Assembly (NCBI GenBank): GCA_934661715.1 | Contig: CAKUJL010000002.1 | Location: forward strand, 1 to 24,579 | Reading direction: 5' to 3' | Length of the DNA stretch: 24,579 nucleotides | From: an uncultured Oscillospiraceae bacterium | GTDB taxonomy: Bacteria > Bacillota > Clostridia > Oscillospirales > Oscillospiraceae | Shown here: piece after piece, positions 552 to 22,612 of the stretch | How the letters are laid out: each line of letters starts with the position of its first letter | Numbering within the stretch: the first letter of the stretch is position 1 | Translations under genes and position numbers: made by a program | The notes under the pieces: model-generated | Told to the model about the DNA's origin: nothing | What the model saw: the letters and a program-made list of their open reading frames with translations, nothing else | Databases searched by the model: none

Positions 552-1757
552 TCATTTGCTGCCGTAAGGATAGATGTCCAGAATCATCAAGGCGTTGAGT
601 ACATCCCGGTATACCTCGGGGTCTGAAAGCTTTTTCTTGAGGATCGACTCGATTCGTTCGATCCGGTAGGAGAGCGTATTGCGGTGGATGTACAACGCCT
701 CCGCCGTGCGCAGCATATTACCGCCGAAGGTGATGTAGGCGCGCAGCGTGGCAAGCAGCTGCTCGTTCTCACTCAGCTCTTTCAGGTAGCGGTCGCGGAA
801 GGCGAAAAGCACAGCCTTGTCTTCAATGTAGAAGGGAAGCTGATAGCTGCCGAGGTCAGAAAAGGAATAGACATTTCCGGCGAGCAGGCCGCCGCGAAGA
901 AGCGAGGAGGTGTAAAAGGCCTGCTGGTAGGCCTTGCCGATTTCCAGTATATTTTCTGTGATGCAGCTGGAAGCCAGCACAAGATTGCTGCCCTTGACCG
1001 AGTGGGAGAACTGGCCGCGCGTGTGTTCCATCAGCTCGAGAATGGGAGCAAAATCCGATTCGGTCCTGCCGTACACCATATAGGCGGCAGAACTTGCCCC
1101 GGGATAGACGATTGGCTTGATCCGCATGGCGTTGAGCGAGGCATTGCACGCATTTTGCAGGGCATTGAGAACACCGAGCATTGTAGCGCCGTAATCCGAG
1201 GCGTCGGGGGCGTCATGGATGGACTGCGGTATGATGGCGAAAAGGAAGACCTGATAGATGCAGTCCGACGGAACGTCTGCCTCTTTGAAAAGCAGCTGTA
1301 CCTCCTTTTGACTGAGGGAGTCGTCGGAAACCAGTTTTTTTAGCAGGGAGGATGCATATTTATCATACAAGCTGCTCTCCAAAATGGCATTGGAGATCTC
1401 ACGGCAGATGTCCAGGAAGCTGACGACACGTGACGCAAAAAAGAGAGGAACGCCGAGCTGGTCAGCGTGGTCGGTCACGGAACGGCTGAGCGTTTTGAAG
1501 TTGATGCCGCCCTCGACCATGATACCGGAGAGATGGTTCATTTCCGCCTCGTCCAAAAGAGCGATCAATTCACTGTCATTCACGCCGTATTCATAGCCGG
1601 ATACCAGAATAAATTCTCCGCCGCGCACCCACGGGCTGACGACCTTGGTGTGCTTTGGATAGGGCCATGAGATGACGTTGTCAAGGCCGGAATGCCCTGC
1701 TACGACGGAAACGCCGCGAAAGGAGTCCAAATGAAGCAACTCTCTGCACGTTAGCAA
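552..1757 (-). CDS. PucR-family transcriptional regulator
   Basis: Likely a DNA-binding regulator of the divergent catabolic operon. The N-terminal 120 or so residues carry the PucR sensor-type domain (LLHLDSFRGVSVVAG, then WVRGGEFILVSGYEYG). The middle is a GGDEF-like/CdaR-type region. Residues about 335-395 form the C-terminal helix-turn-helix (TFGGNMLRTAEALYIHRNTL, then YRIERIE). Length (about 401 aa) suits the family. The longest frame starts at GTG 1766, but that codon overlaps the ribosome site GGAGG (1766-1770); TTG 1757 is 8 bases from it and is the better start. It has its own promoter (1832-1861) and terminator (497-533). PucR members often control purine, amino-acid or GABA catabolism, acting as activators with a small-molecule ligand. 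The ligand here is unknown; by position it is probably an intermediate of operon A. Confidence 0.88.
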   Translation of the reverse strand: MLTCRELLHLDSFRGVSVVAGHSGLDNVISWPYPKHTKVVSPWVRGGEFILVSGYEYGVNDSELIALLDEAEMNHLSGIMVEGGINFKTLSRSVTDHADQLGVPLFFASRVVSFLDICREISNAILESSLYDKYASSLLKKLVSDDSLSQKEVQLLFKEADVPSDCIYQVFLFAIIPQSIHDAPDASDYGATMLGVLNALQNACNASLNAMRIKPIVYPGASSAAYMVYGRTESDFAPILELMEHTRGQFSHSVKGSNLVLASSCITENILEIGKAYQQAFYTSSLLRGGLLAGNVYSFSDLGSYQLPFYIEDKAVLFAFRDRYLKELSENEQLLATLRAYITFGGNMLRTAEALYIHRNTLSYRIERIESILKKKLSDPEVYRDVLNALMILDIYPYGSK

Positions 1758-1765
1758 AATGCACA

Positions 1766-1770
1766 CCTCC
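1766..1770 (-). promoter_or_regulatory. Ribosome site that decides a TTG start for pucR
   Basis: GGAGG on the minus strand, 8 bases before TTG 1757. The alternative GTG 1766 begins inside this site and cannot be served by it. Confidence 0.65.
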
Positions 1771-2131: not shown

Positions 2132-2845
2132 ATGAGCACAATGAACTATACCGAGATTTGCAATGCCCCATGGATGTACATTTATGTAGGATTATTGATC
2201 TTCGCGTGCTGTCTGCACTCCTTTATATTTGCAAGACGTGCGTGGAAGCACGGACTGGATATCGGATTGACACCCACAGAACTTCGTAAACCGCTGACAA
2301 CCGGTATTGGCATCAGCGTGTTTCCGACGATCCCTGTTGTGATTACTATGATTGGCTTGATTCCGCTGCTTGGTACGCCGCTTCCCTGGCTGCGCTTGTC
2401 TGTTATTGGCGGAGCGGCGGCAGAGGCAATGTCGGCCACGGCTGGTGTTGAAGCAGTCGGCGAGGTGCTCGAGGTGGGCGGCTATTCCGTCAAAGGATGG
2501 ATCGCTGCGGCCTATGTTATGTGCTTTGCACAGACGACGGCGGTTATCTTTAATGTCATTTTCACGAAGCCGATCTCGAAGCTTTATGCAGGCGGCAAGA
2601 CAGTTGATGCAAAGCTTCCGATGACGATCGGTACGGGCTGCCTGCTCGGCGTCATGGGATATGCGACGATTAACTTCGGCTTGAGTGCGATTAGCACCAA
2701 AGGACTTGTTTTTGGTGTGAGTTTTCTGGTTGGCGCAGCGATGGTGGTGCTTGCCAAGAAGCTGCCTGAACAGAAGTGGATGAAGGATTCTCTCATGGCT
2801 GTTGCTATGGTTGTAGCCATGGTTGTTGCTGTGATCGTATTCTAA
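2132..2845 (+). CDS. DUF5058-family integral membrane protein
   Basis: A 237-residue, strongly hydrophobic protein with about six membrane segments (near 12-35, 58-82, 122-145, 166-186, 189-208 and 219-237) and a conserved-looking loop GGAAAEAMSATAGVEAVGEV at 93-112. I recognise it as DUF5058-like, a family of unknown function. ATG 2132 is preferred because AAGAAGGGA lies just upstream; upstream in-frame ATGs have no ribosome site. It is the first gene of operon A and is followed 17 bases later by another small membrane protein. No solute-binding protein, ATPase or classical permease is encoded in the operon, so the pair is the obvious candidate for uptake of the substrate. That role is inferred from context. 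Confidence 0.75.
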   Translation: MSTMNYTEICNAPWMYIYVGLLIFACCLHSFIFARRAWKHGLDIGLTPTELRKPLTTGIGISVFPTIPVVITMIGLIPLLGTPLPWLRLSVIGGAAAEAMSATAGVEAVGEVLEVGGYSVKGWIAAAYVMCFAQTTAVIFNVIFTKPISKLYAGGKTVDAKLPMTIGTGCLLGVMGYATINFGLSAISTKGLVFGVSFLVGAAMVVLAKKLPEQKWMKDSLMAVAMVVAMVVAVIVF

Positions 2846-2862
2846 GAAAGGGGATTATGAAA

Positions 2863-3525
2863 ATGGATAACAAAAGACAGGAATTTGTGAGTTGGGTACA
2901 TCGTTTCGGCATTCCCGCCGGTATTATTCTGGCGATTCCGATGTTCGGCTTTCCGGTTGTCTGCTCTTTGATTTATGGCGTTTGGCCCAACTTTGGAGAT
3001 CTCTGGCCTGCTTATGTAGCAATGGTGTTGTTCCTGCTTCCGTGGTGGCCGGCAGAGCATTTTGGATATATGTCAACGATGGGCCCTGGCGCTATGTACA
3101 TGGGTTACATTACAGGCAACATTTCGAATCTCCGCATGCCGGCAACGATTGGTACAATCAACAACTTAGGCATTGAGCCGAATACGGATAAGTGCCATAC
3201 GTTGGCGATCCTTGCCTGCGCGGGATCCGTCGTGACTTCGATTGCGGTTCTTGCGCTGGGCGTTGTGCTTGCGGTTCCTCTTCAGCCGGTGCTTTCAAAT
3301 CCTACGCTCAAGCCTGCTTTTGATTATGTTCTGCCTGCGCTGTTCGGTGGACTGGTCGCACAGAGTGTACTGAAAGGCAAGAAAGAGATTGCGGTTTGGG
3401 TTGGATGTGTGGCTCTTTGCTTCTTCCTAATGAAGACGGGCCTTGGCGCTGCCTACTACATGCTCATTACGATTGCAGTCGGCGCAGGCGCTTATTACCT
3501 TATTGCGTACAAAAAGGCGAAGTAA
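2863..3525 (+). CDS. Uncharacterised membrane protein paired with DUF5058 protein
   Basis: A 220-residue hydrophobic protein with about six membrane segments (near 17-38, 47-62, 112-140, 155-170, 175-190 and 196-214). A polar stretch, TGNISNLRMPATIGTINNLG at 84-103, lies between helices and may line a substrate path. I do not recognise a named family. AAGG at 2848-2851 sits 11-14 bases upstream of ATG 2863; ATG 2857, two codons earlier, is also possible but close to that site. It follows the DUF5058 gene directly and precedes the amidohydrolase by 70 bases. I infer that the two proteins form one membrane complex, probably a transporter; nothing in the sequence proves this. Confidence 0.7.
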   Translation: MDNKRQEFVSWVHRFGIPAGIILAIPMFGFPVVCSLIYGVWPNFGDLWPAYVAMVLFLLPWWPAEHFGYMSTMGPGAMYMGYITGNISNLRMPATIGTINNLGIEPNTDKCHTLAILACAGSVVTSIAVLALGVVLAVPLQPVLSNPTLKPAFDYVLPALFGGLVAQSVLKGKKEIAVWVGCVALCFFLMKTGLGAAYYMLITIAVGAGAYYLIAYKKAK

Positions 3526-3595: not shown

Positions 3596-4891
3596 ATGAG
3601 CGAGTATAAACTGATTCGGTGCGGTAAGCTGTTCGACGGCATCCACGAAGAGATGTATGAAAATATGGAGATTCTGGTAAAGGATAATGTGATTGAGGAA
3701 GTTGGCCGAGGCCTTACTTATCCAGAGGGAACTAAGATCATCGACATGAACGGTAAGACGGTCACGCCCGGCATGATTGACGCGCATGTTCACCTTAGTC
3801 AGATCGACGTTACCGATAAGAATATTGATGTGGTTCACTATTCGGATGGCTGGAGAACACTTGCGGCTCTTTACAGCGCAAAGCGCTGCTTGCACGCAGG
3901 CTTCACCACGGTCCGTCACCTCGGTTGGTTTGCGGAGGACTACATCCTTGATGTTAAGCGCATGATCGACGCCGGTCTGCACGAAGGTGCCCGCGTGATC
4001 GCGGCGCCGCATCTGCTTGGTACGACCGGTAGCCACGGTGATGGTTCCCAGACGTTCAACACGCATCCTGCTCTGGCCGACTGGCTGGCCTATGACCGTT
4101 ATCCGACGATTGGCTGCGGAAAGGATTTCTTTGTCAACGCCGTTCGTAGAGAGCGTAAGCTTGGTGCAGACTTCATTAAGATCATGGTTTCCGGCGGTGT
4201 GATGAGCAAGACCGATCAGCCGACGGACGTTCAGCTCAACGATGAAGAGCTTGCCGGTATTTTCGATACGGCGCAGTCCCTTGGAATCTCTGTTACCGCC
4301 CATAACTACGGTGCAGCGGGCGTGAAGAAGCTCGTCAAGTTCGGCATTAACGGTATTGAGCACGGCACGATGATGGACGAGGAAGCCGCGCGTATGATGG
4401 CGGATGCCGGAACCTATGTTGTTCCCACCTTTGCTCCTGGTGAAGATGCGATTATGAACGGTGATAAGGGACTCAACGGTTGCAACCCGGCATTTATCAA
4501 GTTTGTCCAGCGCGCCGAAGCACTCAAGGCCGGTCGTCAGGTCATTATGGACAGTGATATTAAGCTGATTGGTTATGGTACGGACTTCGTGGTTGGTTGC
4601 CGCCATCAGGTCTATGAGTGCGGCAAGGAGTACTGGTGCTATCTGCAGCACGGCATGGGCGCATACCGCAGCTTGAAGGCTGCGACCTCCGTCAACGCCA
4701 AGATCTGCGGCATTGATGACAAGGTGGGTACCATCGAGAAGGGTAAGCTTGCGGATATTTCCGGTTGGGATGCCGATCTGCTCACCGATCCCTATGGACT
4801 CACCAAGTGTGCCTTTGTTATGAAGGACGGCAAGGAATATGAGCCGGAGTACCAGTACGGCAAGTATTGCAAGTTTGAGGATCTCCTGTAA
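3596..4891 (+). CDS. Amidohydrolase-superfamily metal-dependent hydrolase
   Basis: A 431-residue cytoplasmic enzyme with the full binuclear amidohydrolase set: HxH at H64/H66 (IDAHVHL), a candidate carboxylated Lys at K195 (FIKIMVSGG), H236 (VTAHNYG), H256 (GIEHG) and catalytic D330 (GYGTD). It closes with the usual beta-sandwich return GTIEKGKLADI. The pattern is closest to the imidazolonepropionase / Xaa-Pro-dipeptidase-like branch, whose members cleave amide or dipeptide bonds. The exact substrate cannot be read from sequence. ATG 3596 is chosen because AAAGGAG (3581-3587) fits it; the longer frame from 3578 has no ribosome site. In the operon it probably performs the first hydrolysis, releasing an amino or imino acid for the downstream enzymes. 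Confidence 0.88.
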   Translation: MSEYKLIRCGKLFDGIHEEMYENMEILVKDNVIEEVGRGLTYPEGTKIIDMNGKTVTPGMIDAHVHLSQIDVTDKNIDVVHYSDGWRTLAALYSAKRCLHAGFTTVRHLGWFAEDYILDVKRMIDAGLHEGARVIAAPHLLGTTGSHGDGSQTFNTHPALADWLAYDRYPTIGCGKDFFVNAVRRERKLGADFIKIMVSGGVMSKTDQPTDVQLNDEELAGIFDTAQSLGISVTAHNYGAAGVKKLVKFGINGIEHGTMMDEEAARMMADAGTYVVPTFAPGEDAIMNGDKGLNGCNPAFIKFVQRAEALKAGRQVIMDSDIKLIGYGTDFVVGCRHQVYECGKEYWCYLQHGMGAYRSLKAATSVNAKICGIDDKVGTIEKGKLADISGWDADLLTDPYGLTKCAFVMKDGKEYEPEYQYGKYCKFEDLL

Positions 4892-4909: not shown

Positions 4910-6565
4910 ATGAGTCAATACGGACCTGAATTTTGGAACGGTACGAGCGGAGCGCACCGCCGCGTGATGCTCAAGGCGGCCGGTTATGGCGATAAGGATA
5001 TCCGGACCAAGCCCCATATCGGTGTGCCCAACACCTTTCAGGAGGGCTCACCCGGAACGGCGCACCTGCGTCAGATCGCCGAGGCCGTGAAGCAGGGCAT
5101 TTGGGCGGCAGGCGGCATTCCGATTGAGTTCGGCGTGCCAGCGACCTGCGGTAACATTCCAAACGGCGTGGAGGAGATGAAATATGAGCAGGTCATGCGC
5201 GACATCGTCTGCATGAGCATTGAGGCTGTCAGCAAGGTGCATCAGTTTGACGGAATCTGCATGATCGCCTCCTGCGATAACATCATTGCCGGCTGCTACC
5301 AGGCGGCGGCCCGTCTGGACATTCCCGCGATGGTCGTTACCGGCGGCTGCATGGGTGCAGGCTCTCACAACGGCAAGCGCGTTGTCGAGGCGGATGTGGA
5401 CGTAGCCCGCTTCTCCGGATGCAGCAAGGCGGAGCTCGATGAGTTGGAAGAATGCGTCTGCCCGACCTGCGGCGCCTGCCCGTCGATGGGTACGGCGAAC
5501 ACGATGCAGCTCATCGGTGAGATCTTCAATCTGGTTCTGCCCGGCACCTCCTGCATTCCGGCGGTGGACAGCCTGAAGATCCGCAAGGCGCGTGAGGCCG
5601 GCGAGTACATGGTGGAGATGGTGAAGAAGAACATCCGCCCCTCGCAGCTCATTACCCGCGAAACGCTGCTCAATGCCATCATGTTCGATATGGCGATTGC
5701 CGGTTCGACCAACGCTTTGCTGCACATCCTCGCACTCTCCTACGAGCTGGGGCTGGACATCAGCATGGAGGACTTTGAGACTTATGCAAAGGAGATCCGC
5801 TGCATTGTCGGCGTCATTCCGAGCGGTCCGTATACCATCAATGATCTTTATTACGCCGGCGGCGCGCTGGCCGTCATGAAGAAGCTGGAGAGCAAGATCT
5901 TCAGCGACGTGCCGACAATGACCGGAACAACGTGGGGCGAGATGCTCAAGAAGGTGCTTGACCGTAAGACGGATGTGGTCCGTGATCTGGACAATCCGCA
6001 CTTCGACCTTCCCGGTCTCCAGATCCTGCGCGGAAACCTCGCTCCTTACGGCGCGATCATCCGTCCGACGGGTGTTCCCGAGGAGATGCGTACCTTCCGC
6101 GGTAAGGCAAAGTGCTTCGATAACGATACGAAGGCCTATCAGGCGATCGTTGCCGGTCAGATCATTCCCGGCGACGTGCTCGTCATCCGTTATGAGGGCT
6201 GCAAAGGCGCACCCGGCATGAAGGAACTAATGCTCTCCAACGACGCACTGGTTGCCTACGGCCTACATAAGAGTGTCGGCCTGGTCACGGATGCACGTTT
6301 CTCCGGCTTCAGCCATGGTGCACTGGTAGGACATATTTCTCCGGAGGCCTATGACGGCGGCAATATCGCACTTGTGGAAGACGGCGACATGATTACCGTC
6401 GACTCCATCAAGGGTGTTGTGGAACTGGAAGTTCCCGACGAGGTCCTTGCCGAGAGAAGAAAGAACTGGGTCTGTCCGCCGCTCAAGGAGCAGAAGGGCT
6501 GCCTGAATATCTTTGCACGCACCTGTCGTCCCGCCCACGAAGGTGGCGCGATGCAGCCGTGGTGA
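4910..6565 (+). CDS. IlvD/Edd-family dehydratase homologue with altered ligands
   Basis: A 551-residue cytoplasmic protein recognisable as IlvD/Edd from end to end: CPTCGACPSMGTANTM (184-199), RYEGCKGAPGMKEL, DARFSGFSHGALVGHISPEA. Normal members dehydrate 2,3-dihydroxy acids or sugar acids using an Fe-S cluster and Mg2+. Of the three cluster cysteines, two are present (C122, C190). The first is absent: the usual NPC(N/H) is GSPGTAH at 47-53. The Asp-Gly of the usual SDG Mg site reads CGN (80-82), and the usually carbamylated Lys after CD is N124 (SCDN). The Glu and the catalytic-type Ser (FSGFS) regions are kept. It is therefore unlikely to be the biosynthetic ilvD, and no other branched-chain gene is nearby. 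Start ATG 4910 follows AAAGGAGG. It may catalyse a different dehydration in the operon A pathway; the substrate is unknown. Confidence 0.85.
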   Translation: MSQYGPEFWNGTSGAHRRVMLKAAGYGDKDIRTKPHIGVPNTFQEGSPGTAHLRQIAEAVKQGIWAAGGIPIEFGVPATCGNIPNGVEEMKYEQVMRDIVCMSIEAVSKVHQFDGICMIASCDNIIAGCYQAAARLDIPAMVVTGGCMGAGSHNGKRVVEADVDVARFSGCSKAELDELEECVCPTCGACPSMGTANTMQLIGEIFNLVLPGTSCIPAVDSLKIRKAREAGEYMVEMVKKNIRPSQLITRETLLNAIMFDMAIAGSTNALLHILALSYELGLDISMEDFETYAKEIRCIVGVIPSGPYTINDLYYAGGALAVMKKLESKIFSDVPTMTGTTWGEMLKKVLDRKTDVVRDLDNPHFDLPGLQILRGNLAPYGAIIRPTGVPEEMRTFRGKAKCFDNDTKAYQAIVAGQIIPGDVLVIRYEGCKGAPGMKELMLSNDALVAYGLHKSVGLVTDARFSGFSHGALVGHISPEAYDGGNIALVEDGDMITVDSIKGVVELEVPDEVLAERRKNWVCPPLKEQKGCLNIFARTCRPAHEGGAMQPW

Positions 6566-6585: not shown

Positions 6586-7590
6586 ATGAAGGCGAAAAAG
6601 ACACTCTTTACGGTAGAATCCCATACAATGGGTGAGCCGCTCCGTCTCGTTGTCGGCGGTATTCCGACGCTGAAGGGAAACAGTATCCCCGAAAAACGGG
6701 AATATTTTATCAAGAACTATGATTACATGCGCAAGGCCCTGATGCAGGAGCCGCGCGGACATAAGGACATGTTTGGTTGCATTCTCACGGAGCCTACCAT
6801 GGAAGAAGCGGATGTCGGCGTGATCTTCATGCACGGCGAAGGCTTCCACAATATGTGCGGCCACGGGACGATTGCGACCAATACGATCCTGGTGGAGACC
6901 GGAATGGTTCCGGTTACGGAGCCAGTGACAACGGTCAAGATGGAGGCCCCCGCGGGACTGGTCACAGTTCATGTGAACGTGGAGGACGGGCATGCGAAGA
7001 ACGTTTCGTTTGAAAATGTGCCTGCGTTCCTCTATAAGCGGGATGTTGAGATTGATGTACCCGGCTACGGGAAATACACGATTGACGTCTCGTTCGGCGG
7101 AAGCTTTTTCGCCATCGTTGACGCTAAGCAGTTGGGACTGGGCATTTGCCCGGAAAACGCTACAAAGCTGACACAGGCTGGCATGGCGATCATCCATGCG
7201 GCAAATGAGCAGATCAAAGTAGAGCATCCCGATCTGCCGCACATCAAGACCATTGATCTGTGCGAGATTTACGGCCCGGCCAAGTCTCCCGACGCTGATA
7301 TGCAGAACATCACCATCTTTGACAACCAGATCGACCGTTCCCCCTGCGGAACGGGAACCTGCGCCAAGGTTGCCACACTGTGGGCGAAGGGTGAGCTGAA
7401 GGTTGGCGAGGAGTTCGTTTACGAGAGCGTGATCAACACGAAGTTTGTCGGCAAGGCGCTGCGTGAAACGCAGGTCGGTCCCTATCGGGCCATTATTCCG
7501 CAGGTGACCGGCAGCGCTTACATCACCGGCTATGCGCAGTGGATGATCGACGAGGATGATCCCGTTAAGCACGGTTTCGCTTTGGGTTGA
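6586..7590 (+). CDS. Proline racemase / hydroxyproline 2-epimerase family enzyme
   Basis: A 334-residue PLP-independent racemase with both catalytic cysteines: C91 in NMCGHGTIA and C254 in DRSPCGTGT. Family knowledge: two Cys mean racemase/epimerase activity, whereas the 3-hydroxyproline dehydratases carry Thr at one position, so this member should invert the alpha-carbon. Proline, 4-hydroxyproline or another cyclic or linear amino acid are possible substrates and cannot be separated by eye. ATG 6586 follows GAGAGGAGAGG with good spacing, 20 bases after the IlvD/Edd gene. It probably epimerises the amino acid liberated by the amidohydrolase. No proline reductase (prd) genes are in the window, which argues against the classical Stickland proline pathway. 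Confidence 0.88.
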   Translation: MKAKKTLFTVESHTMGEPLRLVVGGIPTLKGNSIPEKREYFIKNYDYMRKALMQEPRGHKDMFGCILTEPTMEEADVGVIFMHGEGFHNMCGHGTIATNTILVETGMVPVTEPVTTVKMEAPAGLVTVHVNVEDGHAKNVSFENVPAFLYKRDVEIDVPGYGKYTIDVSFGGSFFAIVDAKQLGLGICPENATKLTQAGMAIIHAANEQIKVEHPDLPHIKTIDLCEIYGPAKSPDADMQNITIFDNQIDRSPCGTGTCAKVATLWAKGELKVGEEFVYESVINTKFVGKALRETQVGPYRAIIPQVTGSAYITGYAQWMIDEDDPVKHGFALG

Positions 7591-7625: not shown

Positions 7626-8618
7626 ATGAAAGTAGTAATCTGTGATTATAAGACGGATCTGGCGCGGAACGTGGAGTACGAAAAAGAGCTTTTGAGGAAA
7701 GCGTTTCCGGACGTGCAGATCGAGACATATGAGTACCACGATGACAAGAAGGAACTGATTTCCATTGTTGCGGACGCGGACGCCGTCATAAATACGTACA
7801 TAGATTTTGACCGCGAGATTTTGTCGCAGTGCAAAAAGCTCAAGGTGATCGCGCTTAACGCCGTTGGCTACAACATGGTGGACGTCGCGGCGGCGACGGA
7901 ATACGGCGTGATGGTCTGTCCGGCGGCGGAGTACTGCACGGTCGAGGTGGCGGAGCACACGATGGCGCTGCTCTTTGCGCTCTGCCGGGCACTGCGCAAG
8001 TACGTAACGTCGATTGAGAATCACGTTTGGGATTATACCATCGGCGGAAATGTGGAGCGCATCAGCGGGAAGACGATGACGATCTTCGGTTTTGGGAAGA
8101 TCGGAAAGGCGGTCGCACAGCGTGCCCAGGCGATGGAAATCAAAGTGCAGGTCGTTTCCGGCTCACTCAAGCCGGAGGCGGCGGAGGCACTGGGCGTGAA
8201 GCTGGTGGACTGCGACACGGCGCTGGAGACCTCGGATATTCTCTCAAACCACCAGGCACTGAACGAGAAGACGGCGGGGTATTTCAATCTGGAAAAGTTC
8301 GCAAGGTGTAAGCGCCGCCCAATTTTCATCAACACAGGACGCGGCGGCAGCGTGGTGGAGGACGATCTGGTCAAGGCGCTGGACGAGGGTTACATCAGTG
8401 CGGCCGGACTGGATGTGCTGGCGAGCGAGAACGTCGATTTCAGCCAGCTGAAGCTGCTCGGGCGGGACAATGTAATCATCACGCCGCATGTTGGCTTCTT
8501 CTCGATTCAGGCGGCGCGGGATTTGCAGGACATCGCCTGCAACACCGTGATCTGTGCCATGAAGCAGGAGTATGACGGCATTTCCAAGATCGTCAACCGG
8601 GCGGAGCTCAAGCTTTGA
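7626..8618 (+). CDS. D-isomer-specific 2-hydroxyacid dehydrogenase
   Basis: A 330-residue NAD(P)-dependent reductase of 2-keto acids to D-2-hydroxy acids. The Rossmann motif GFGKIG is at 155-160. The catalytic triad is R239 (NTGRGG), E268 (LASE) and H288 (ITPHVG). The acidic residue that normally ends the second Rossmann strand and binds the NAD ribose is missing; the strand reads VQVVSGS, which may favour NADPH. ATG 7626 is preferred, with AAGGAG at 7609-7614. The longer frame begins at a TTG overlapping the previous stop and lacks a ribosome site. It lies between the racemase and ridA, as expected of an enzyme consuming the 2-keto acid formed by imine hydrolysis. That pathway role is inference. 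Confidence 0.86.
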   Translation: MKVVICDYKTDLARNVEYEKELLRKAFPDVQIETYEYHDDKKELISIVADADAVINTYIDFDREILSQCKKLKVIALNAVGYNMVDVAAATEYGVMVCPAAEYCTVEVAEHTMALLFALCRALRKYVTSIENHVWDYTIGGNVERISGKTMTIFGFGKIGKAVAQRAQAMEIKVQVVSGSLKPEAAEALGVKLVDCDTALETSDILSNHQALNEKTAGYFNLEKFARCKRRPIFINTGRGGSVVEDDLVKALDEGYISAAGLDVLASENVDFSQLKLLGRDNVIITPHVGFFSIQAARDLQDIACNTVICAMKQEYDGISKIVNRAELKL

Positions 8619-8633
8619 GAAAGGAAGAGAACC

Positions 8634-9017
8634 ATGAAGAAATATGCGATTACAAATGAAGCGCAGGCAGGACCGGCGCATGGTCCCTATTCGCAGGCAT
8701 TGGTGTGCGATCATCTTTTCTACACGGGAGTGATCGGCTCGGACGCAAGCGGTGAAGTCGTAAGCGACAAGGTGTATGAGCAGACGATCCGCTGTCTGGA
8801 GAATACGGAGGCGTTTCTCAAGGAGGCGGGCGGCTCGCTTGCCGACGTCATCAACGTGACGGTGTATCTTCTGCAGATCTCCGATTTTGATGAGATGAAC
8901 CGCGCGTATAAGGAAAAGTTTGTGGAAGCACCGATGCCGGCGCGCGCGACGGTGACCGTGCATGAGATGCTGCCGGGCGTGAAGGTCGAAATGGTCGTGA
9001 CTGCGTATCTGCCGTGA
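8634..9017 (+). CDS. RidA-family enamine/imine deaminase
   Basis: A 127-residue Rid-family (YjgF/YER057c) protein of standard length. The substrate-carboxylate-binding Arg is R104 in PMPARATVTV, followed by the C-terminal VKVEMVVTAY strand; GPYSQAL (17-23) is the family's N-terminal signature. RidA proteins hydrolyse reactive 2-imino or enamino acids to 2-keto acids and ammonia. A dedicated copy at the end of a catabolic operon implies that an upstream enzyme releases such an imine, fitting the dehydratase/racemase/dehydrogenase set. ATG 8634 follows GAAAGGAAGAG, 15 bases after the dehydrogenase stop. The operon terminator follows at 9038. Confidence 0.92.
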   Translation: MKKYAITNEAQAGPAHGPYSQALVCDHLFYTGVIGSDASGEVVSDKVYEQTIRCLENTEAFLKEAGGSLADVINVTVYLLQISDFDEMNRAYKEKFVEAPMPARATVTVHEMLPGVKVEMVVTAYLP

Positions 9018-9119: not shown

Positions 9120-9890
9120 TCAGACAATAATACATTGCTTGTTTTTATAGACCTGCTCGACAAACAGGGTCGGCGTGATGGAGGTATACTGCTTGAAATC
9201 GTGGATAAAATGTGCCTGATCGTAGTAGCCAAGATCAACGATTACATCCATCACACAGGCGGATTCCAGATAGCGCAGAGCCGTCTGCATCCGGACAATA
9301 TCCGAGTATTTTTTCAAAGAGACGCCGTAATTCTGACGAAAGATGTTGTTGACATACTGCTGGGAATAGCCCATGGAGCTGGCGATATCTGTAATGCGCT
9401 GGATGCCGGTTGTCTGCGTGATCATTTTGGCTGCGCTGGAAGCGATGACGGGCAGCGTGAAAAACTGCTTATTGTTAAAAAAGCTTTGCGCGGTGTCGAG
9501 CATCTGCGCGAAGTCGGCACACTCACTCAAATGCTCCTCCAGCAGAGAAACGTCCAGAAATTCGGTGAGCGGAATGCGACTGTCGACAAGATTTTGAATA
9601 TTATGGCTGAGAAAACGGAAGCGGACGTCGGGGCGGAGCTTCATGCCAAAGCAACGCTGGTAGCGGCTGACCATCGACTTTCTGCCTTGCAGGAAGCTAC
9701 CGCAGGCATAACCGCGGCAGGTGTTGTTTTCCCAAGTAAACTCAAGGTCGATGTAGCTGTCGGGAATAGCAATAATGTCAATTTGGCTGGGGTTTTCAAT
9801 CAAATAAAACTTTTCAAAGACCGGGTCTCCGGACAAAAATTCCTGATAACGGACGAAACTATTATTGATATAAAATGTGCGAAAGCTCAC
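9120..9890 (-). CDS. AraC-family transcriptional regulator
   Basis: A 256-residue protein with the two helix-turn-helix units of AraC/XylS regulators at the C-terminus: about 166-187 (ITDIASSMGYSQQYVNNIFR) and 213-236 (VIVDLGYYDQAHFIHDFKQY). The N-terminal 140 or so residues are an unassigned ligand or partner domain. The frame extends to ATG 9929, but the strong ribosome site AAGGAGG (9906-9900) lies 9 bases before GTG 9890, so GTG is taken as the start. It is convergent with operon A and has its own promoter at 9966-9994. Target genes are unknown; operon A or the neighbouring minus-strand genes are candidates by position only. Confidence 0.85.
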   Translation of the reverse strand: MSFRTFYINNSFVRYQEFLSGDPVFEKFYLIENPSQIDIIAIPDSYIDLEFTWENNTCRGYACGSFLQGRKSMVSRYQRCFGMKLRPDVRFRFLSHNIQNLVDSRIPLTEFLDVSLLEEHLSECADFAQMLDTAQSFFNNKQFFTLPVIASSAAKMITQTTGIQRITDIASSMGYSQQYVNNIFRQNYGVSLKKYSDIVRMQTALRYLESACVMDVIVDLGYYDQAHFIHDFKQYTSITPTLFVEQVYKNKQCIIV

Positions 9891-9899
9891 GGCGTCCAC

Positions 9900-9906
9900 C
9901 CTCCTT
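9900..9906 (-). promoter_or_regulatory. Ribosome site that decides a GTG start for the AraC regulator
   Basis: AAGGAGG on the minus strand, 9 bases from GTG 9890. It lies inside the longer frame from ATG 9929, which itself has no ribosome site. Confidence 0.7.
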
Positions 9907-9946
9907 TTTGATTTATTTATAGAAACCATAAATCGACAAAATGCGA

Positions 9947-13740: not shown

Positions 13741-14781
13741 ATGAAAAAGATTCTTGCGCTAATCCTTGCGGGCGTTATGACCCTTTCGCTCGCAGCCTGC
13801 GGCTCCAAGCCCCCCGCAGAAGACACGAACAACGATGCCAATACGGGTGATGACAGCACGGTCTACAAGCTGATTACCGGCTCCACCGTTCAGGACGACT
13901 CCGCATCCGGCATTGCCCTGCTCGAGTACTTCAAGCCCTACGTGGAAGAGCACTCCAACGGCCGCATTCAGGTTGAGGTTCAGAACAACTCTGTTCTTGG
14001 CTCCGACCGCGAGCTGTTCGAAGGCCTTCAGATGAACACGGTTCAGTGCTCCTTCGGCCCCATGTCCACGCTGGCCAACTTCGCTCCCGACTACGCGGTG
14101 TGCGACCTGCCCTTCCTCTTCAGCGATAAGGAAGACGCTTACGCACAGCTCGACGGTGAGTTCGGCGCCAAGCTTGCCGAGTCTCTGCCCAACGTCGGTA
14201 TGCGTCTGCTCGCCTACGGCGAAAATGCGTTCCGCAACATCTCCAACTCCCAGCGTCCCATCGAGAAGCTGGAAGACCTGAAGGGCCTCAAGATCCGCGT
14301 CATGGAGTCCCCCATCAACATCGCTACCTACACCGCTCTGGGCTGCAACCCCACTCCGATGGCGTTCTCCGAGCTCTACACCGGCCTGCAGCAGAAGACG
14401 GTTGACGGTCAGGACAACGGCGTTGTTCTTACCTACACCGCCAAGCTCTTCGAGGTTCAGAAGTACTACACCTTCACCGGCCAGATCTACGCCGCCAACG
14501 GCATGGTCTTCTCCGAGGCCTTCTGGCAGAGCCTGCCCGAGGATCTTCAGCAGGTCGTTCGTGACGGTGCTCTCTACGCGATGGAGAATCAGCGCCGCCT
14601 GAACACCGAGATGGAAGAGTCCCTCATCACCACCATGGAAGAGGCTGGCCTGCAGGTCAACCATATGGACGAGGCTGAGATTGCCCGCATGAGAGAAGCT
14701 ACTGCGTCCGTTTGGGATCAGTTCAAGGGCGATATCTCCGAGGAAATCTACAACATGGCTGTCGAGATCCGCGACAACTAA
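13741..14781 (+). CDS. dctP: TRAP transporter solute-binding lipoprotein (DctP family)
   Basis: A 346-residue extracytoplasmic receptor. The N-terminus is a lipoprotein signal, MKKILALILAGVMTLSLAAC, with lipobox LAAC and lipidated C20. The mature part shows the DctP hallmarks: the ligand-carboxylate Arg R186 (LKGLKIRVMES) and the NPTPMAFSELYTGLQQ helix followed by KTVDGQDN. Such receptors bind carboxylates and hand them to the QM permease, driven by a sodium or proton gradient. The specific ligand is not evident. AAGGAGG sits 7 bases before ATG 13741. Codons are strongly C-ending, consistent with high expression. A GC-rich hairpin separates it from dctQ, as often seen where the receptor is made in excess of the membrane subunits. 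Confidence 0.93.
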   Translation: MKKILALILAGVMTLSLAACGSKPPAEDTNNDANTGDDSTVYKLITGSTVQDDSASGIALLEYFKPYVEEHSNGRIQVEVQNNSVLGSDRELFEGLQMNTVQCSFGPMSTLANFAPDYAVCDLPFLFSDKEDAYAQLDGEFGAKLAESLPNVGMRLLAYGENAFRNISNSQRPIEKLEDLKGLKIRVMESPINIATYTALGCNPTPMAFSELYTGLQQKTVDGQDNGVVLTYTAKLFEVQKYYTFTGQIYAANGMVFSEAFWQSLPEDLQQVVRDGALYAMENQRRLNTEMEESLITTMEEAGLQVNHMDEAEIARMREATASVWDQFKGDISEEIYNMAVEIRDN

Positions 14782-14816
14782 AACTCCCCAGCGCTTTAAT
14801 TCAATGGTTTAATTGA

Positions 14817-14859
14817 GTGTGTGGGGGCGTCGGCTTGACGCCGGCGTCCCCCGTACACT
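14817..14859 (+). promoter_or_regulatory. GC-rich intercistronic hairpin between dctP and dctQ
   Basis: GGGGGCGTCGGC pairs with GCCGGCGTCCCCC across a short loop, with one bulge, extended by GTGT/ACAC. No T-run follows, so it is more likely an mRNA-stabilising or partially attenuating stem than a full terminator. Confidence 0.55.
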
Positions 14860-14894
14860 TCCTGCGTTGATTCAGCTTTAGGAAGGGTTACTAT

Positions 14895-15407
14895 ATGAAA
14901 GAAAACAAATTGGCCTACATCTGGAATCACTTGGAGGAAATTATCTTGGTTCCCTCCTTTATGATTTCCACGGCGCTTGTCTTTATCCAGGTTATCATGC
15001 GTTATATTTTCCACAATTCTCTGACCTGGTCTGAGGAACTGGTGCGTTACATTTACATTTGGCAGACCTGGATCGGTGTGAGCTATGCGGTTCAGACCGG
15101 CAGCCATCTGCGCATCACGATGATTCGTGACAGACTCCCTGCCAAGGGCCAGCAGGTCCTTGAGATCCTTGTTCGTATTATTTGGGTCGGCTTTGCGATC
15201 TTCATTGCTTATCAGGGCGTTCAGGCCGTGCAGATTATTCTGTCTTTCGGCCAGAAATCTTCCGCTCTGCGCGTTCCCATGCAGTTCTGCTATATGTCGA
15301 TTCCTGTTGGTATGATTTTAATGAGCATCCGCCTGATCGAGAAGACGGTCAAGGAGCTGCTTCATAAAGATAATTCCACCTCTCAGGAAGGAGGCGTTGC
15401 TGAATGA
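14895..15407 (+). CDS. dctQ: TRAP transporter small permease (DctQ family)
   Basis: A 170-residue membrane protein with four predicted helices (about 13-33, 50-68, 84-108 and 130-150) and the DctQ signature RYIFHNSLTWSEELVRYIYI followed by WQTWIGVSYAV. It is the small membrane subunit that joins the large permease to the binding protein. The start follows AGGAAGGG with usual spacing. The stop overlaps the start of dctM by 4 bases (ATGA), so the two are translationally coupled, matching the fixed 1:1 complex. Confidence 0.93.
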   Translation: MKENKLAYIWNHLEEIILVPSFMISTALVFIQVIMRYIFHNSLTWSEELVRYIYIWQTWIGVSYAVQTGSHLRITMIRDRLPAKGQQVLEILVRIIWVGFAIFIAYQGVQAVQIILSFGQKSSALRVPMQFCYMSIPVGMILMSIRLIEKTVKELLHKDNSTSQEGGVAE

Positions 15408-16681
15408 ATATCGCAATGCTCTTTGGCATCTTCTTTGTCCTTGTTATGCTCAGTGTGCCGATCGGCGTTTCACTCGGCCTCGCTACCTCCGTTACCATTA
15501 TTCTTACCTCTGACATCGCTCCCGTGCTGGTTGCGCAGAAGGCATTCACGGGTCTTGATACGTTCACGCTCCTGGCGATCCCCTTCTTCATGCTTGCCGG
15601 TAACCTGATGGCCTACGGCGGCATTGCGCGCCGTATTGTCAAGCTGGCCGACGCGGCAGTCGGCAAGTACACCGGCGGTCTCGGCATGGCTACCGTTATC
15701 GGCTGCATGTTCTTTGCGGCGATTTCCGGTTCCGGCCCGGCCACGGTCGTTGCCATGGGCGCGATCATGATCCCTGAAATGGTCAAGCGCGGCTACGACA
15801 AGGGCTTCGCCACCGGTCTGACGGCAACGGCCGGTACGATCGGCGTTATCATCCCGCCCTCCATTCCCTTCGTTATTTACGGTGTTGCTTCCGGTACGTC
15901 CGTCGGAGACCTGTTCAAGGGCGGCTTTATTCCTGGTTTCCTGATTGGCTTTGCACTGATGCTCGTCAGTTATCTGATTTCCAAAAAGCGCAGCTACAAG
16001 GGTATGGTCCGCGAGAAGAACGATGAGAGCTTTATGTCCGTCCTGATGGACTGCCTGCCGGCGATCATGGCTCCGGTCATCATCCTCGGCGGTATCTACG
16101 CTGGTATCTTCACGCCGACCGAAGCGGCAGTTGTCGGTTCTGTCTACGCGCTGATTGTCGGAAAGTTCGTTTACCATGAGCTGGATTGGAAGACGATCGT
16201 CGACGCTTATAAGAGCACGGCGGATACCAACGGTATGACCGGTCTGGCACTCGGCTTCTCGATGGCGTTTGCTTCCTATCTGACGATGGAGCAGATCCCG
16301 ACCAAGATCGCCAACTATCTGCTCTCTGCAATCTCGGCTGATTGGCTGCTGATCCTCATGATGCTGATCGTTCTGCTGATCTTCGGCCTGTTCGTCGATA
16401 ACATCTCCTCCTGCCTGATCCTCACGCCGGTGTTCCTGCCGGTTGCGACCCGTCTGGGCATGAGTCCTGTCCACTTCGGTATCATGATGACGGTTGCTTT
16501 GGCGATCGGCTTCGTTACGCCTCCTTACGGCGTTAACCTGTTCGTTGCTTCCTCCGTTTCCAAGATGAAGATCGAAGAGGTGTCCAAATCTGCGATTCCG
16601 TTTATTATTGCAATGCTGGTCTGCCTGTTGCTGATCGCTTACATTCCCGGAATCTCTATGCTGCTGGTAAATCTCCTTTAA
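15404..16681 (+). CDS. dctM: TRAP transporter large permease (DctM family)
   Basis: A 425-residue membrane protein with about 11-12 helices, the ion-coupled translocating subunit. Typical DctM motifs are visible: LAIPFFMLAGNLM, FFAAISGSGPATVVAMG, GVIIPPSIPFVIYG, GIFTPTEAAVVGSVYAL and VTPPYGVNLFV. Overlap with dctQ and full length indicate an intact tripartite system together with dctP. Substrates of TRAP systems are generally organic acids or related anions; in this context an amino-acid-derived acid or acyl-amino acid is plausible but unproven. Confidence 0.94.
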   Translation: MNIAMLFGIFFVLVMLSVPIGVSLGLATSVTIILTSDIAPVLVAQKAFTGLDTFTLLAIPFFMLAGNLMAYGGIARRIVKLADAAVGKYTGGLGMATVIGCMFFAAISGSGPATVVAMGAIMIPEMVKRGYDKGFATGLTATAGTIGVIIPPSIPFVIYGVASGTSVGDLFKGGFIPGFLIGFALMLVSYLISKKRSYKGMVREKNDESFMSVLMDCLPAIMAPVIILGGIYAGIFTPTEAAVVGSVYALIVGKFVYHELDWKTIVDAYKSTADTNGMTGLALGFSMAFASYLTMEQIPTKIANYLLSAISADWLLILMMLIVLLIFGLFVDNISSCLILTPVFLPVATRLGMSPVHFGIMMTVALAIGFVTPPYGVNLFVASSVSKMKIEEVSKSAIPFIIAMLVCLLLIAYIPGISMLLVNLL

Positions 16682-16712
16682 GGATGTTGTTCACCGGCGT
16701 GCAGTGAATTGT

Positions 16713-16757
16713 ACAGCATTGCCTGTGAACACAAATGAGGTTTACAGGCAATGCTGT
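16713..16757 (+). terminator. Perfect 14-bp hairpin after the TRAP operon
   Basis: ACAGCATTGCCTGT (16713-16726) pairs exactly with ACAGGCAATGCTGT (16744-16757) across a 17-base loop. No T-run follows, so termination is uncertain; it could be a processing or attenuation hairpin. The rest of 16682-16973 holds the next promoter and no gene. Confidence 0.5.
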
Positions 16758-16838
16758 TGCAATATGGAAAATGCTTTATTTTATAAGACTTTTTGTGCGT
16801 GATGCTTCAATTTTTACAATGCAAAATCTGCCGCATCG

Positions 16839-16844
16839 TATAAT
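16839..16844 (+). promoter_or_regulatory. Likely -10 box of the aminotransferase operon
   Basis: Consensus TATAAT; the best -35 (TTTACA 16813-16818) is 20 bases away, too far for a good promoter, so activation or a weak promoter is possible. Downstream, ACCGTTCA is perfectly repeated in tandem (16907-16922). Confidence 0.45.
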
Positions 16845-16973
16845 ATGATAACAGGTTTTATAAGGTTTCCATTTTCCGACGCGGCGCGGATTGTGCCGCA
16901 TTTCATACCGTTCAACCGTTCACAAATCAGACAACCGTAAAACCACAAGAATAAAGAAAAGGAGAAATGGATC

Positions 16974-18263
16974 ATGATGACACAGAATGAAAGATCACAG
17001 GCAACCGTGCCGCCGATGGCATTACACAGCGCCACGACGCCCTGTGTTGTAAAGGGCGAGGGCTGCTATCTGTACACGGAGGATGGCCGGAAGATTCTGG
17101 ATATGGCATCCGGTATCGCGGTAAACGCGCTGGGCCACTGCCATCCGAAGGTAGTGGAGGCAATCGAGAAGCAGGTGCATACGCTGATCCACGCAGGCCA
17201 CAACGTGCTGTATTATGAGCCGTACGTGACGCTGACGGAGAAGCTGGTGCATGCGACGGGCGACAAGTACAAGCTGTACTTCTCGAACTCCGGCGCGGAG
17301 GCGAACGAGGGCGCGATGAAGCTGGCGAAGTACGCCACGCACCGTCCGGTCATCATCTCGATGAAGAACGCGTTCCACGGCCGTACGATGGCGACGGCGA
17401 CGATCACGACGTCGAACGCGAACTATCGCAAGTACTATGAGCCGATGATGCCGAGCGTGTACTTTGCGGAGTATCCGTACCTGTTCCGTACTCCGTACAA
17501 GATGGAGGACGGCAAGTGCCCGAAGGAGTACTTCACGCAGTTTGACGATATTTTCAAGAAGATCGTGGATCCCTCGATGGTGGCGGCGATCATGATGGAG
17601 CCGATTCAGGGCGAGGGCGGCTATGTGGTGCCCCCGATCGAGTGGCTGAAGTATGTGCGTGAGATCTGCGACAAGCACGGGATCATGCTGATCTTCGACG
17701 AGGTGCAGTCCGGCTTTGGCCGTACGGGTAACCTGTATGCATGGCAGACGTTCGGCGTGGAGCCCGACATCTTCACGTCGGCGAAGGGCATTGCGGGCGG
17801 TATGCCGCTGAGCGCAGTGTTCGGCAAGAAGGAGATCATGGACAAGTGGGCGGCCGGTGCACACGGCGGCACGTTCGGCGGCAACCCGGTGTCCTGCGCG
17901 GCGTCTATTGCAGTTCTGGATGAGCTGTATGAGGGCGGCGTGCTGGAGAACTGCCGCAAGATGGGCGAGGTTGTGCGTGCGAAGATGCACGATCTGCAGA
18001 AGAAGTATCCTGTGATCGGCGATGTGCGCGGCGTTGGCCTGATGAACGCGATGGAGTTCGTCAAGACCGAGGACAACGCGCCCGACGGCGCGCTGTGCGC
18101 GAAGGTGCAGGCAGAGGCGCTCAAGCGCGACCTGTTCCTGCTCAACTGCGGTGCAGACCACAACAACATTCGTCTGATTCCGCCTCTGAACGTGGATGAG
18201 GAGACGATTAACAAGGTGTTTGATATTCTCGACGCGGCGATTGACGCAGCGCTCAAGGCCTAA
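16974..18263 (+). CDS. Class III (omega-amino acid) PLP aminotransferase, GABA-transaminase-like
   Basis: A 429-residue fold-type I aminotransferase. The PLP lysine is K271 (TSAKGIAGG); the cofactor Asp is D242 (LIFDEVQSGFGR); SNSGAEANE (104-112) and MEPIQGEGGY are typical of class III. HGGTFGGNPVSCAA resembles GabT-type enzymes. Members move an amino group from a terminal amine (GABA, beta-alanine, 5-aminovalerate, ornithine) to a 2-keto acid, forming a semialdehyde. The next gene, 23 bases on, is an aldehyde dehydrogenase of the CoA-acylating type, which fits. ATG 16974 is 9 bases from GGAG; a second ATG follows at 16977. Codon choice strongly favours G-ending triplets (ACG, GCG, CTG), unlike its neighbour. 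Confidence 0.9.
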   Translation: MMTQNERSQATVPPMALHSATTPCVVKGEGCYLYTEDGRKILDMASGIAVNALGHCHPKVVEAIEKQVHTLIHAGHNVLYYEPYVTLTEKLVHATGDKYKLYFSNSGAEANEGAMKLAKYATHRPVIISMKNAFHGRTMATATITTSNANYRKYYEPMMPSVYFAEYPYLFRTPYKMEDGKCPKEYFTQFDDIFKKIVDPSMVAAIMMEPIQGEGGYVVPPIEWLKYVREICDKHGIMLIFDEVQSGFGRTGNLYAWQTFGVEPDIFTSAKGIAGGMPLSAVFGKKEIMDKWAAGAHGGTFGGNPVSCAASIAVLDELYEGGVLENCRKMGEVVRAKMHDLQKKYPVIGDVRGVGLMNAMEFVKTEDNAPDGALCAKVQAEALKRDLFLLNCGADHNNIRLIPPLNVDEETINKVFDILDAAIDAALKA

Positions 18264-18286
18264 TTTTAAGACGGAGGAAAAGAGCA

Positions 18287-19654: not shown

Positions 19655-19783
19655 TTTACTTAGCTCTGGTAATTAGGTCGAGCTGTTATAAACATCCTCT
19701 CACGGTTTTTCTTGCCATTTAAATTCTCTCATTGATCTGGTATTTCATATGCATTACAGCAATCGTCTAATTCACCAGTTTTA

Positions 19784-19823
19784 ATGTAATAAAAGCCCGA
19801 CATTAGTCGGGCTTTTATTACAT
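19784..19823 (+). terminator. Strong intrinsic terminator after the aldehyde dehydrogenase
   Basis: A perfect 18-bp stem (19784-19801 with 19806-19823; core AAAAGCCCGAC) with loop ATTA. The right arm carries TTTTATTA, and the structure is nearly symmetrical, so it can work in both directions. Between 19655 and 19783 I see no gene or clear signal. Confidence 0.85.
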
Positions 19824-19916
19824 ACGCAGACAGCAAGCAGCTACGGAAAGCGGTTTTGAGGATCGATGGTGCAGAGGCGTGGAGAGCCAACACCATTCGA
19901 AAAGTGGAGGAAATGT

Positions 19917-20879: not shown

Positions 20880-20943
20880 AATATGGATACAGGCAGATTA
20901 AAATAATTACAATCACTCTATAACATTTGCAGGAGATAACAAT

Positions 20944-22287: not shown

Positions 22288-22612
22288 GTGAATAAGCCAT
22301 TTCAACCGGCGGTGCTTGGCCCGCTTAACCTGAAAAACAGGACGGTACGTTCGGCTACCAACGAGCACTTGTCACAGCCGGACGGTCAGGTAACAAAGAT
22401 CTGGGCGGATACGCTTGTTGAGCTTGCAAAGAATGAGGTTGGGCTGATTATCTCCGGCCATTTCTGCGTGGATGCGTCCCAGCGTGCGGATGAGGGGCAG
22501 CCGGTTCTGGATGAAAAGACGGACCGGGAAATCCTCTGCTGCGCAGCAGACGGTGTGCATCAGTGTGGCGGTAAGATTCTGGCACAACTCAGTCACAGCG
22601 GCATCAAAGCCA
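22288..22612 (+). pseudogene. 5' fragment of an old-yellow-enzyme family NADH:flavin oxidoreductase
   Basis: GTG 22288, 6 bases after AGGAG, opens a frame starting 22 bases past the CoA-transferase-like gene. About 108 residues match the N-terminus of old yellow enzymes / 2-enoate reductases: LGPLNLKNRTVRSAT (10-24), VGLIISGH (51-58) and GGKILAQLSHSG (94-105). From about 22610 the frame is the antisense of the SLH-protein gene and homology ends. About 250 residues or more of the flavin barrel are missing. The full gene would be expected to reduce an enoate or enoyl-type double bond. The truncation coincides exactly with the truncation of the opposing gene. Confidence 0.75.

Follow-up and report, generated by a model that had tools for sequence, protein, structure and literature searches.

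What does a member of the IlvD/Edd dehydratase family do once some of the residues that normally hold its metal ion have been replaced? The question is raised by a gene in a 24,579-nucleotide stretch of DNA from an uncultured Oscillospiraceae bacterium (contig CAKUJL010000002.1, positions 1 to 24,579; the whole stretch is called the window below), which encodes an IlvD/Edd homologue carrying the unusual motifs CGN and CDN. An original prediction, made from the sequence letters, held that the Fe-S cluster or the metal site of this protein had been rebuilt for a non-canonical reaction. By comparing the protein with reference enzymes, its relatives and their gene neighbourhoods, we conclude that it is probably an amino acid dehydratase of some kind; that it is, more exactly, an Fe-S dehydratase without a Mg site, which acts on a 3-hydroxyproline isomer and hands its product to a partner of the ornithine cyclodeaminase (OCD) family, we put at about an even chance. 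The gene and its main residues are these:

4910..6565, plus strand: IlvD/Edd variant of the CGN/CDN clade, predicted Fe-S dehydratase of a beta-hydroxy amino acid, lacking the Mg site
Residues C80, C122 and C190 of the variant: putative cluster ligands; S465: putative base; D123 and E439: kept
Residues G81 and N124 of the variant: standing where Mg ligands normally are

As had been claimed, the open reading frame (ORF) is intact: it encodes 551 amino acids with no internal stop, and starts at an ATG with AAAGGAGG in front. Both Pfam domains of the family are matched over its full length (ILVD_EDD_N, 328.4 bits, cut-off 27; ILV_EDD_C, 209.7 bits, cut-off 27.7). Eight NCBIfam dehydratase models match it and none reaches its cut-off, including the dihydroxy-acid dehydratase (DHAD) models PRK00911 (the best, 544.3 against 644) and TIGR00110 (530.1 against 618.15) and the Edd model TIGR01196 (193 bits against 708). 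The motifs CGN (80-82), CDN (122-124), C190, EGCKGAPGM (from 429) and FSGFS are all present as first described, and GSPGTAH lies at 46-52 rather than at 47-53. Neither PROSITE motif of the family, as given in PMC5770437 (used here, like the other papers cited by PMC number, in excerpt), fits the protein: in place of C-D-K-x(2)-P-[GA]-x(3)-[GA] it reads CDNIIAGCYQA, with Lys replaced by Asn and Pro by Ala, and in the second motif, which ends in T-D-[GA]-R-[LIVMFY]-S-[GA]-[GAV]-[ST], it reads TDARFSGFS, the sole mismatch being Phe at [GAV]. The catalytic serine of the R-x-S-G motif is present (S465). Among the matches listed, the names given are 'dihydroxy-acid dehydratase' (one entry carries a technical label only); the variant proteins are thus named for this activity, yet their residues make the usual Mg-dependent working unlikely.

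Which of these differences are truly unusual was judged from two alignments: one with IlvD, Edd and YagF of E. coli, AraD of R. leguminosarum, and IlvD of Paenibacillus and Thalassospira; the other with 18 chosen stretches from variant-bearing genomes, of which three are variant or sister-clade copies and 15 are non-variant paralogues. The original prediction had regarded an invariant cluster cysteine as missing from GSPGTAH and C80 as a possible new ligand, and neither point survives. Position 49 has no Cys in IlvD, Edd and YagF of E. coli or in Paenibacillus IlvD, and all 15 paralogues read PG at 48-49, CDG at 80-82 and CDK at 122-124; the first ('PCN') cysteine is present in R. leguminosarum AraD and Thalassospira IlvD. 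At position 80, Edd and YagF have Cys (as CDG), and E. coli and Paenibacillus IlvD read DDG. Because Edd, YagF and the 15 paralogues carry Cys there, C80 is not new and no cluster cysteine has been lost; a lost or moved cysteine was accordingly rejected as the novelty of this protein. The first Cys is described as conserved in one subfamily only, the Edd counterpart lying within a Cys-Asp-Gly motif (PMC5770437). By alignment, C80 (at the Edd and clostridial position), C122 and C190 are therefore the cysteines usual in this branch of the family, and they are predicted to bind the cluster.

The metal site differs from this. The Mg ligands of the family are a Glu or Asp (81 here), an Asp (123), a carbamylated Lys (124) and a Glu (PMC5770437), and in the variant D81 is replaced by Gly and K124 by Asn, with D123 and E439 (the latter placed by alignment) remaining. 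Judged from these residues, the true change is the loss of two of the four Mg ligands, Asp81 to Gly and carbamyl-Lys124 to Asn or Leu. The proposal of a rebuilt site therefore holds for the metal and fails for the Fe-S cysteines, which are normal; likewise the alignment of active-site places, proposed earlier as a check, confirms the replacement of Asp81 and Lys124 and overturns the loss of Cys, the third Cys being that at the C80 position. In three ordinary enzymes of the family, Ala at the position equivalent to 81 leaves almost no activity, and docking places Mg2+ at the C2 hydroxyl and a carboxylate oxygen of the substrate (PMC9314677).

The altered residues are strictly kept. In the 120 homologues listed (68-100% identical) of the 7594 found, C80, G81, N82, C122, D123, C190, E439 and S465 are present in every one of the 120, and at position 124 stands Asn in 119 and Leu in one; conservation across these homologues shows that the CGN/CDN pattern is not due to chance. 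From genomes, 82 loci were found and 80 kept, using scan patterns typical of the CGN/CDN clade, so that the set represents this clade and not the whole family. In the 78 loci that are readable, position 124 is Asn in 61, Leu in 17 and Lys in none, and position 81 is Gly in 74 and Ala in four; since either Asn or Leu can stand there, position 124 is hardly a ligand. The cluster cysteines, S465, Arg463, D123 and E439 are kept in the readable relatives, with a sole exception at 465 in L069, whose frame is broken. In a maximum-likelihood tree of 43 rows, every row without Lys124 (CDN or CDL) falls within a single clade of 22 (bootstrap/SH-aLRT 100/99), consisting of a CAE sister group of four and a main group of 18 (each 100/100); the places of the long-branch reference rows Edd, YagF and AraD in this tree are unsure. 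On the simplest reading, the Mg site disappeared a single time and stayed lost. The ratio of nonsynonymous to synonymous substitution rates (dN/dS) between the window gene and that of L001 is 0.064 (against L002, synonymous sites are saturated), and the variant gene is under purifying selection. The intact frame and this ratio bear out the earlier view that the enzyme has not decayed, and a pseudogene was rejected on the same grounds.

Nor is the variant the cell's ordinary IlvD, because a higher-scoring family member (above 425 bits) is also found in 25 of the 33 host genomes tested, the variant standing alone in eight; these 33 genomes are those of 33 of the 80 loci, were chosen by hand, and include metagenome assemblies that are perhaps incomplete. 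Six of the 25 higher-scoring members were read (L112, L122, L126-L129) and are of the CDG/CDK types. Searches among kin turned up few variants: two in 300 genomes of the family of G001, two in 86 of its genus, and one in seven of the genus of G002 (G001 and G002 counted). A sister clade (L070, L072, L123) reads SAGHTH or SPGHKP, STCAE, CDNIVPG, and RYAGP or RYCGP, with no carbamyl-Lys and with Glu at 82; it may use yet another substrate, since its neighbours differ.

The neighbourhoods point to what the variant may feed. An OCD/mu-crystallin gene was found by tblastn within 3.3 kb of the variant (between midpoints) in 55 of the 80 loci, on the other strand in three, and it is present in the close relatives L001 (IlvD 90% identical, gene order racemase-OCD-IlvD) and L002 (88%). 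In Coprococcus comes and Clostridium sp. OS1-26 the two genes stand next to each other. In a class sample, an even draw of 291 genomes of Emergencia's class, five genomes carry the variant and 16 have an OCD match; four of the five variant genomes hold the four best OCD matches (at least 63% identity), each at most 0.3 kb from the variant. Compared with proteins of solved structure, the OCD scores 260 bits with 6t3e (a Delta1-pyrroline-2-carboxylate reductase), 182 with alanine dehydrogenase and 76 with ornithine cyclodeaminase; PRK08618, a model naming no function, is passed by the OCD of L009 (446 against a cut-off of 417) and just missed by that of L051 (410). In Bacilli, OCD-family proteins adjoining trans-3-hydroxyproline dehydratases have been found experimentally to reduce the proline ketimine (PMC4113996). 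Between the OCD gene and the variant, L055 (9721-9972) and L047 (9713-9964) carry an 83-amino-acid gene that is tautomerase-like from its first residues (MPHISLSL...), with no Pfam or NCBIfam match for the L055 copy; our guess is that its product could speed enamine-imine conversion.

What is observed is the set of altered residues, how strictly they are kept, the clade they mark and the genes nearby; from this we infer cluster binding, the absence of Mg2+, a reaction and a substrate as follows. An IlvD/Edd paralogue would have been converted into an amino acid dehydratase in which C80, C122 and C190 hold the Fe-S cluster, as in Edd and clostridial DHAD; the exposed cluster iron would serve as the Lewis acid that activates the beta-(3-)hydroxyl, and S465 would take the alpha proton. 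With two of its four protein ligands lost, the Mg2+ that binds the C2 hydroxyl and the carboxylate in ordinary members would be absent, and in its place D123 and E439 would hold the substrate by its positively charged ring amine. The product enamine would tautomerise to Delta1-pyrroline-2-carboxylate, which the OCD-family partner would reduce to L-proline; proline serves many hosts as a Stickland electron acceptor.

In the window itself, the variant lies within a compact run of genes between two regulators:

552..1766, minus strand: PucR-family regulator (family search)
2132..2845, plus strand: DUF5058 membrane protein, probable transporter half (ORF from 2075, likelier start 2132; scanned from 2135)
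2857..3525, plus strand: second membrane-type protein, probable DUF5058 partner (no Pfam match; ORF from 2776, the range scanned, likelier start 2857)
3596..4891, plus strand: amidohydrolase resembling Xaa-Pro dipeptidase (NF051886, 238.7 bits, below the cut-off of 500; ORF open from 3578, the range scanned, ATG at 3596 being the likelier start)
6586..7590, plus strand: proline racemase/hydroxyproline epimerase family protein (curated proline racemase model NF010576 not reached, 529.6 bits against a cut-off of 556)
7626..8618, plus strand: D-isomer 2-hydroxyacid dehydrogenase family protein (family search; ORF open from 7587, the range scanned, ATG at 7626 being the likelier start)
8634..9017, plus strand: RidA family enamine/imine deaminase (Pfam above cut-off; TIGR00004, 90.4 bits against 106.25)
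9120..9929, minus strand: AraC-family regulator, bounding the cluster on its far side (family search)

The amidohydrolase gene ends 18 bp before the variant, and the racemase-family gene starts 20 bp 3' of it, followed by the dehydrogenase and RidA genes. The racemase-family protein has, by sequence, both catalytic cysteines (NMCGHG, SPCGTG) and is 81% identical to the counterpart adjoining the variant in L001. Counterparts of the PucR regulator (39-43% identity) stand 2.8-4.1 kb upstream of the variant in L047, L051, L055 and L080. With no OCD gene here, RidA and the 2-hydroxyacid dehydrogenase may take over its job, RidA opening the imine and the dehydrogenase reducing the 2-oxo acid; if they act so, the window and the OCD arrangements need the same kind of product, the exchange being one seen at a single locus. 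The original prediction proposed, as a check, a search for such variants near amidohydrolase and RidA genes, and as a general rule this association was rejected: RidA was matched in one of the 80 loci (L058, 32% identity), and weak 82-residue matches to the amidohydrolase occur in two (L043, L044). The 2-hydroxyacid dehydrogenase gives 25-27% matches in three of the 80, at distances of roughly 6 kb or more. The suggestion in the original prediction that a beta-hydroxy amino acid is dehydrated to an enamine or imine fares better, since it fits the neighbourhoods, and a product of this kind is also what the OCD in 55 of 80 points to.

As substrate, a ring amino acid (hydroxyproline) is favoured by the evidence over an open-chain one. 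Hydroxyproline-pathway genes neighbour the variant in its relatives, and the window has the racemase family of that set and not the OCD. A proline racemase family gene was found by tblastn in 12 of the 80 loci (5 kb off and on the other strand in L064), a TSUP-family transporter in 13, and Xaa-Pro aminopeptidase matches in seven, one of them at 27% identity only. Genes for FAD/2Fe-2S amino acid dehydrogenases of the hydroxyproline type lie near the variant in three loci (L047, L059, L060): the alpha and gamma subunits of L059 are 68% identical to those of a Bacillus badius plasmid cluster that also holds two racemase-family genes and an OCD gene, and the subunits of L060 and L047 are 28-52% identical to that cluster. 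DHDPS-family genes occur in L059 and L060 and an aldehyde dehydrogenase gene in L059, both families belonging to the hydroxyproline pathway (PMC4113996). Near the divergent copies of Emergencia there is a proC gene, about 4 kb away in L064 and 7 kb away in L131 (a CAE-type sister), and both proC genes pass the cut-off (232 and 218 against 196.75). PrdB, of D-proline reductase, is over its cut-off in 18 of the 33 variant genomes against 15 of the 291 in the class sample.

Several observations weigh against a 3-hydroxyproline dehydratase paired with OCD. The window lacks an OCD gene, judged from its ORFs and from Pfam over its proteins, as do 25 of the 80 loci (nine of which have less than 2.5 kb of contig on one side), and in the fifth variant genome of the class sample (G167) the OCD lies on another contig. 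Conversely, 11 of the 16 OCD-bearing sample genomes have no variant, and a TrmB-TSUP-OCD set occurs on Enterococcus and Carnobacterium plasmids without it, so OCD relatives function in its absence too. Despite the ranking by sequence, the OCD could still be a true ornithine cyclodeaminase. Within the class sample PrdB occurs in three of the five variant-bearing genomes against 12 of the 286 others (p = 0.001), a value that overstates the evidence, as genome comparisons of this kind are phylogenetically non-independent (three of the five variant genomes are Peptostreptococcus); PrdB was not over its cut-off in Emergencia (G025), Dethiosulfatibacter (G023), the L047 genome (G019) or the genomes of L001-L003, whose variants are closest to the window gene. 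Near the divergent L070 and L072 stand a DHDPS-family gene and a sugar-kinase-like gene (the kinase recognized by eye), which could mean a sugar acid. Finally, a class I/II aminotransferase gene adjoins the variant or lies one gene off in L051, L055 and L080; an aminotransferase cannot act on proline and fits a primary amino acid better.

This last observation speaks for the alternative that survives best, though it is still unlikely: that the same mechanism dehydrates an open-chain beta-hydroxy amino acid of the threonine/serine or hydroxy-aspartate type, with the OCD acting as an amino acid dehydrogenase, RidA hydrolysing the imine to a 2-oxo acid and the 2-hydroxyacid dehydrogenase reducing it. 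The window does carry genes for the latter two, an L-serine dehydratase-like gene (by eye) lies near L058 and L080, and among models the OCD fits archaeal alanine dehydrogenase second best; however, the three activities that PMC4113996 describes for the racemase family are all on proline and hydroxyproline, and the Xaa-Pro peptidases, hydroxyproline-type dehydrogenases, proC and PrdB point to a pyrrolidine ring. It is more doubtful that the variant is still a dihydroxyacid or sugar acid dehydratase whose divalent ion is held by fewer or other ligands (N82, N124, water). The high similarity to DHAD (530 bits with TIGR00110) and the neighbours of L070 and L072 would suit such an enzyme, but it falls below the cut-off of all eight matched dehydratase models, Ala in place of D81 nearly abolishes ordinary enzymes (PMC9314677), position 124 hardly provides a ligand, and 25 of the 33 genomes hold a higher-scoring second copy. 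Slightly less probable again is another cyclic hydroxy amino acid, or an imine derived from hydroxyproline (hydroxypipecolate, 4-hydroxy-pyrroline-2-carboxylate), feeding the same reductases, as the dehydrogenase and DHDPS-family genes near L059 and L060 and the aldehyde dehydrogenase of L059 might suggest; against it, dehydrogenase genes were matched in three of the 80 loci and OCD in 55, and where dehydratase and OCD stand together with no dehydrogenase, the substrate has to be the hydroxy acid itself. That catalysis has been lost and the variant is a binding or regulatory protein, as the loss of two Mg ligands would allow, is very improbable given cluster cysteines and base serine in 120 of the 120 homologues listed, the dN/dS of 0.064, and a gene repeatedly paired with enzymes.

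A 3-hydroxyproline dehydratase of the proposed kind would resemble several known systems in part. It shares with clostridial DHAD (IlvD, TIGR00110/PRK00911; six copies) the fold family, PG in place of the PCN cysteine, Cys at 80, 122 and 190, and the base serine, whereas DHAD retains Asp81 and Lys124 of the Mg site and has a biosynthetic role; E. coli IlvD has PG like the variant, but DDG at 80-82. Edd, 6-phosphogluconate dehydratase, has Cys at the C80 position (CDG) and the cysteines of CDK and GTC, but retains the Asp and Lys and acts on a sugar phosphate. Aconitase X (AcnX) is a known family of cis-3-hydroxyproline dehydratases; the reaction proposed here is like its own, and it too is an iron-dependent hydro-lyase recruited to hydroxyproline, but it belongs to another superfamily, that of aconitase. 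AcnX was strongly matched in five of the 33 variant genomes, so any replacement of it by the variant is not strict. In the AcnX crystal structure, substrate atoms occupy the sites of waters and Mg2+ of the apo form (PMC8184944). The trans-3-hydroxyproline dehydratase of Bacilli offers the same pair of dehydratase and OCD reductase, with the same proposed intermediate and product, but there the dehydratase is a racemase-fold enzyme with Cys/Thr (PMC4113996), whereas the racemase-family protein of the window has both cysteines and the dehydratase role would fall to the IlvD/Edd variant.

The fuller proposal, which we rate a shade short of even, is that this clade abandoned Mg2+ for 3-hydroxyproline dehydration, with the ammonium group of the substrate taking the place of the metal. 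The activity, known from enzymes of the proline-racemase, aconitase X and enolase-superfamily kinds (for the last, PMC5144071), would then have arisen independently once more, here in IlvD/Edd. Among the titles and abstract openings of open-licence PMC papers, we found neither an IlvD/Edd enzyme acting on hydroxyproline nor a description of the CGN/CDN variant. If the proposal is true, a clade spread across gut and amino-acid-fermenting Clostridia feeds proline to Stickland fermentation, widespread misannotation masks a route in gut Clostridia from a hydroxylated, collagen-type amino acid to proline, and the variant is a clean case of a metal ion exchanged for a charged substrate group. Proline is one of the main Stickland electron acceptors, and to our knowledge no amino acid dehydratase was known before in IlvD/Edd.

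Further observations concern the partner genes and the rest of the window. Three genomes, Peptostreptococcus in two cases, carry an OCD gene 12-15 kb from prdB, by selA/selB/selD-like genes recognized by eye (L102, 16236-17285 and 26-919; L103, 16698-17699; L104, 14551-15552), and in L102 a TSUP transporter gene adjoins a prdF-like gene of the proline racemase family (by eye); the OCD and TSUP genes near prdB in L102-L104 are candidate extra parts of proline fermentation. On plasmids, a TrmB-type regulator, a TauE/SafE-family transporter and an OCD form a module (L087, 852-3640, and L088, 4294-6981; Carnobacterium viridans and Enterococcus faecalis), and the IlvD variant was not matched in these stretches. 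In Emergencia timonensis (L131, 9015-17102) the CAE-type sister paralogue lies near a glycyl radical enzyme and an activase; the former is below the cut-off of each specific model and was rejected as HypD (561 against an NCBI cut-off of 1100).

Elsewhere in the window, a second catabolic-looking run at 13741-22266 on the plus strand, with translations read by eye, comprises TRAP-transporter-like DctP/Q/M genes, a class III (4-aminobutyrate-type) aminotransferase, a CoA-acylating-type aldehyde dehydrogenase, an AEC-type transporter and a CoA-transferase-like gene; by these names it looks like omega-amino acid degradation. In the region of about 22288-24441, an NADH:flavin oxidoreductase-like gene starts at 22288, also on the plus strand, and its family-like sequence seems by eye to fade past about 115 residues. 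An opposite-strand ORF of 689 amino acids, encoding an S-layer-homology-type protein, runs into it, and an assembly join or rearrangement is possible near 22.6-22.7 kb.

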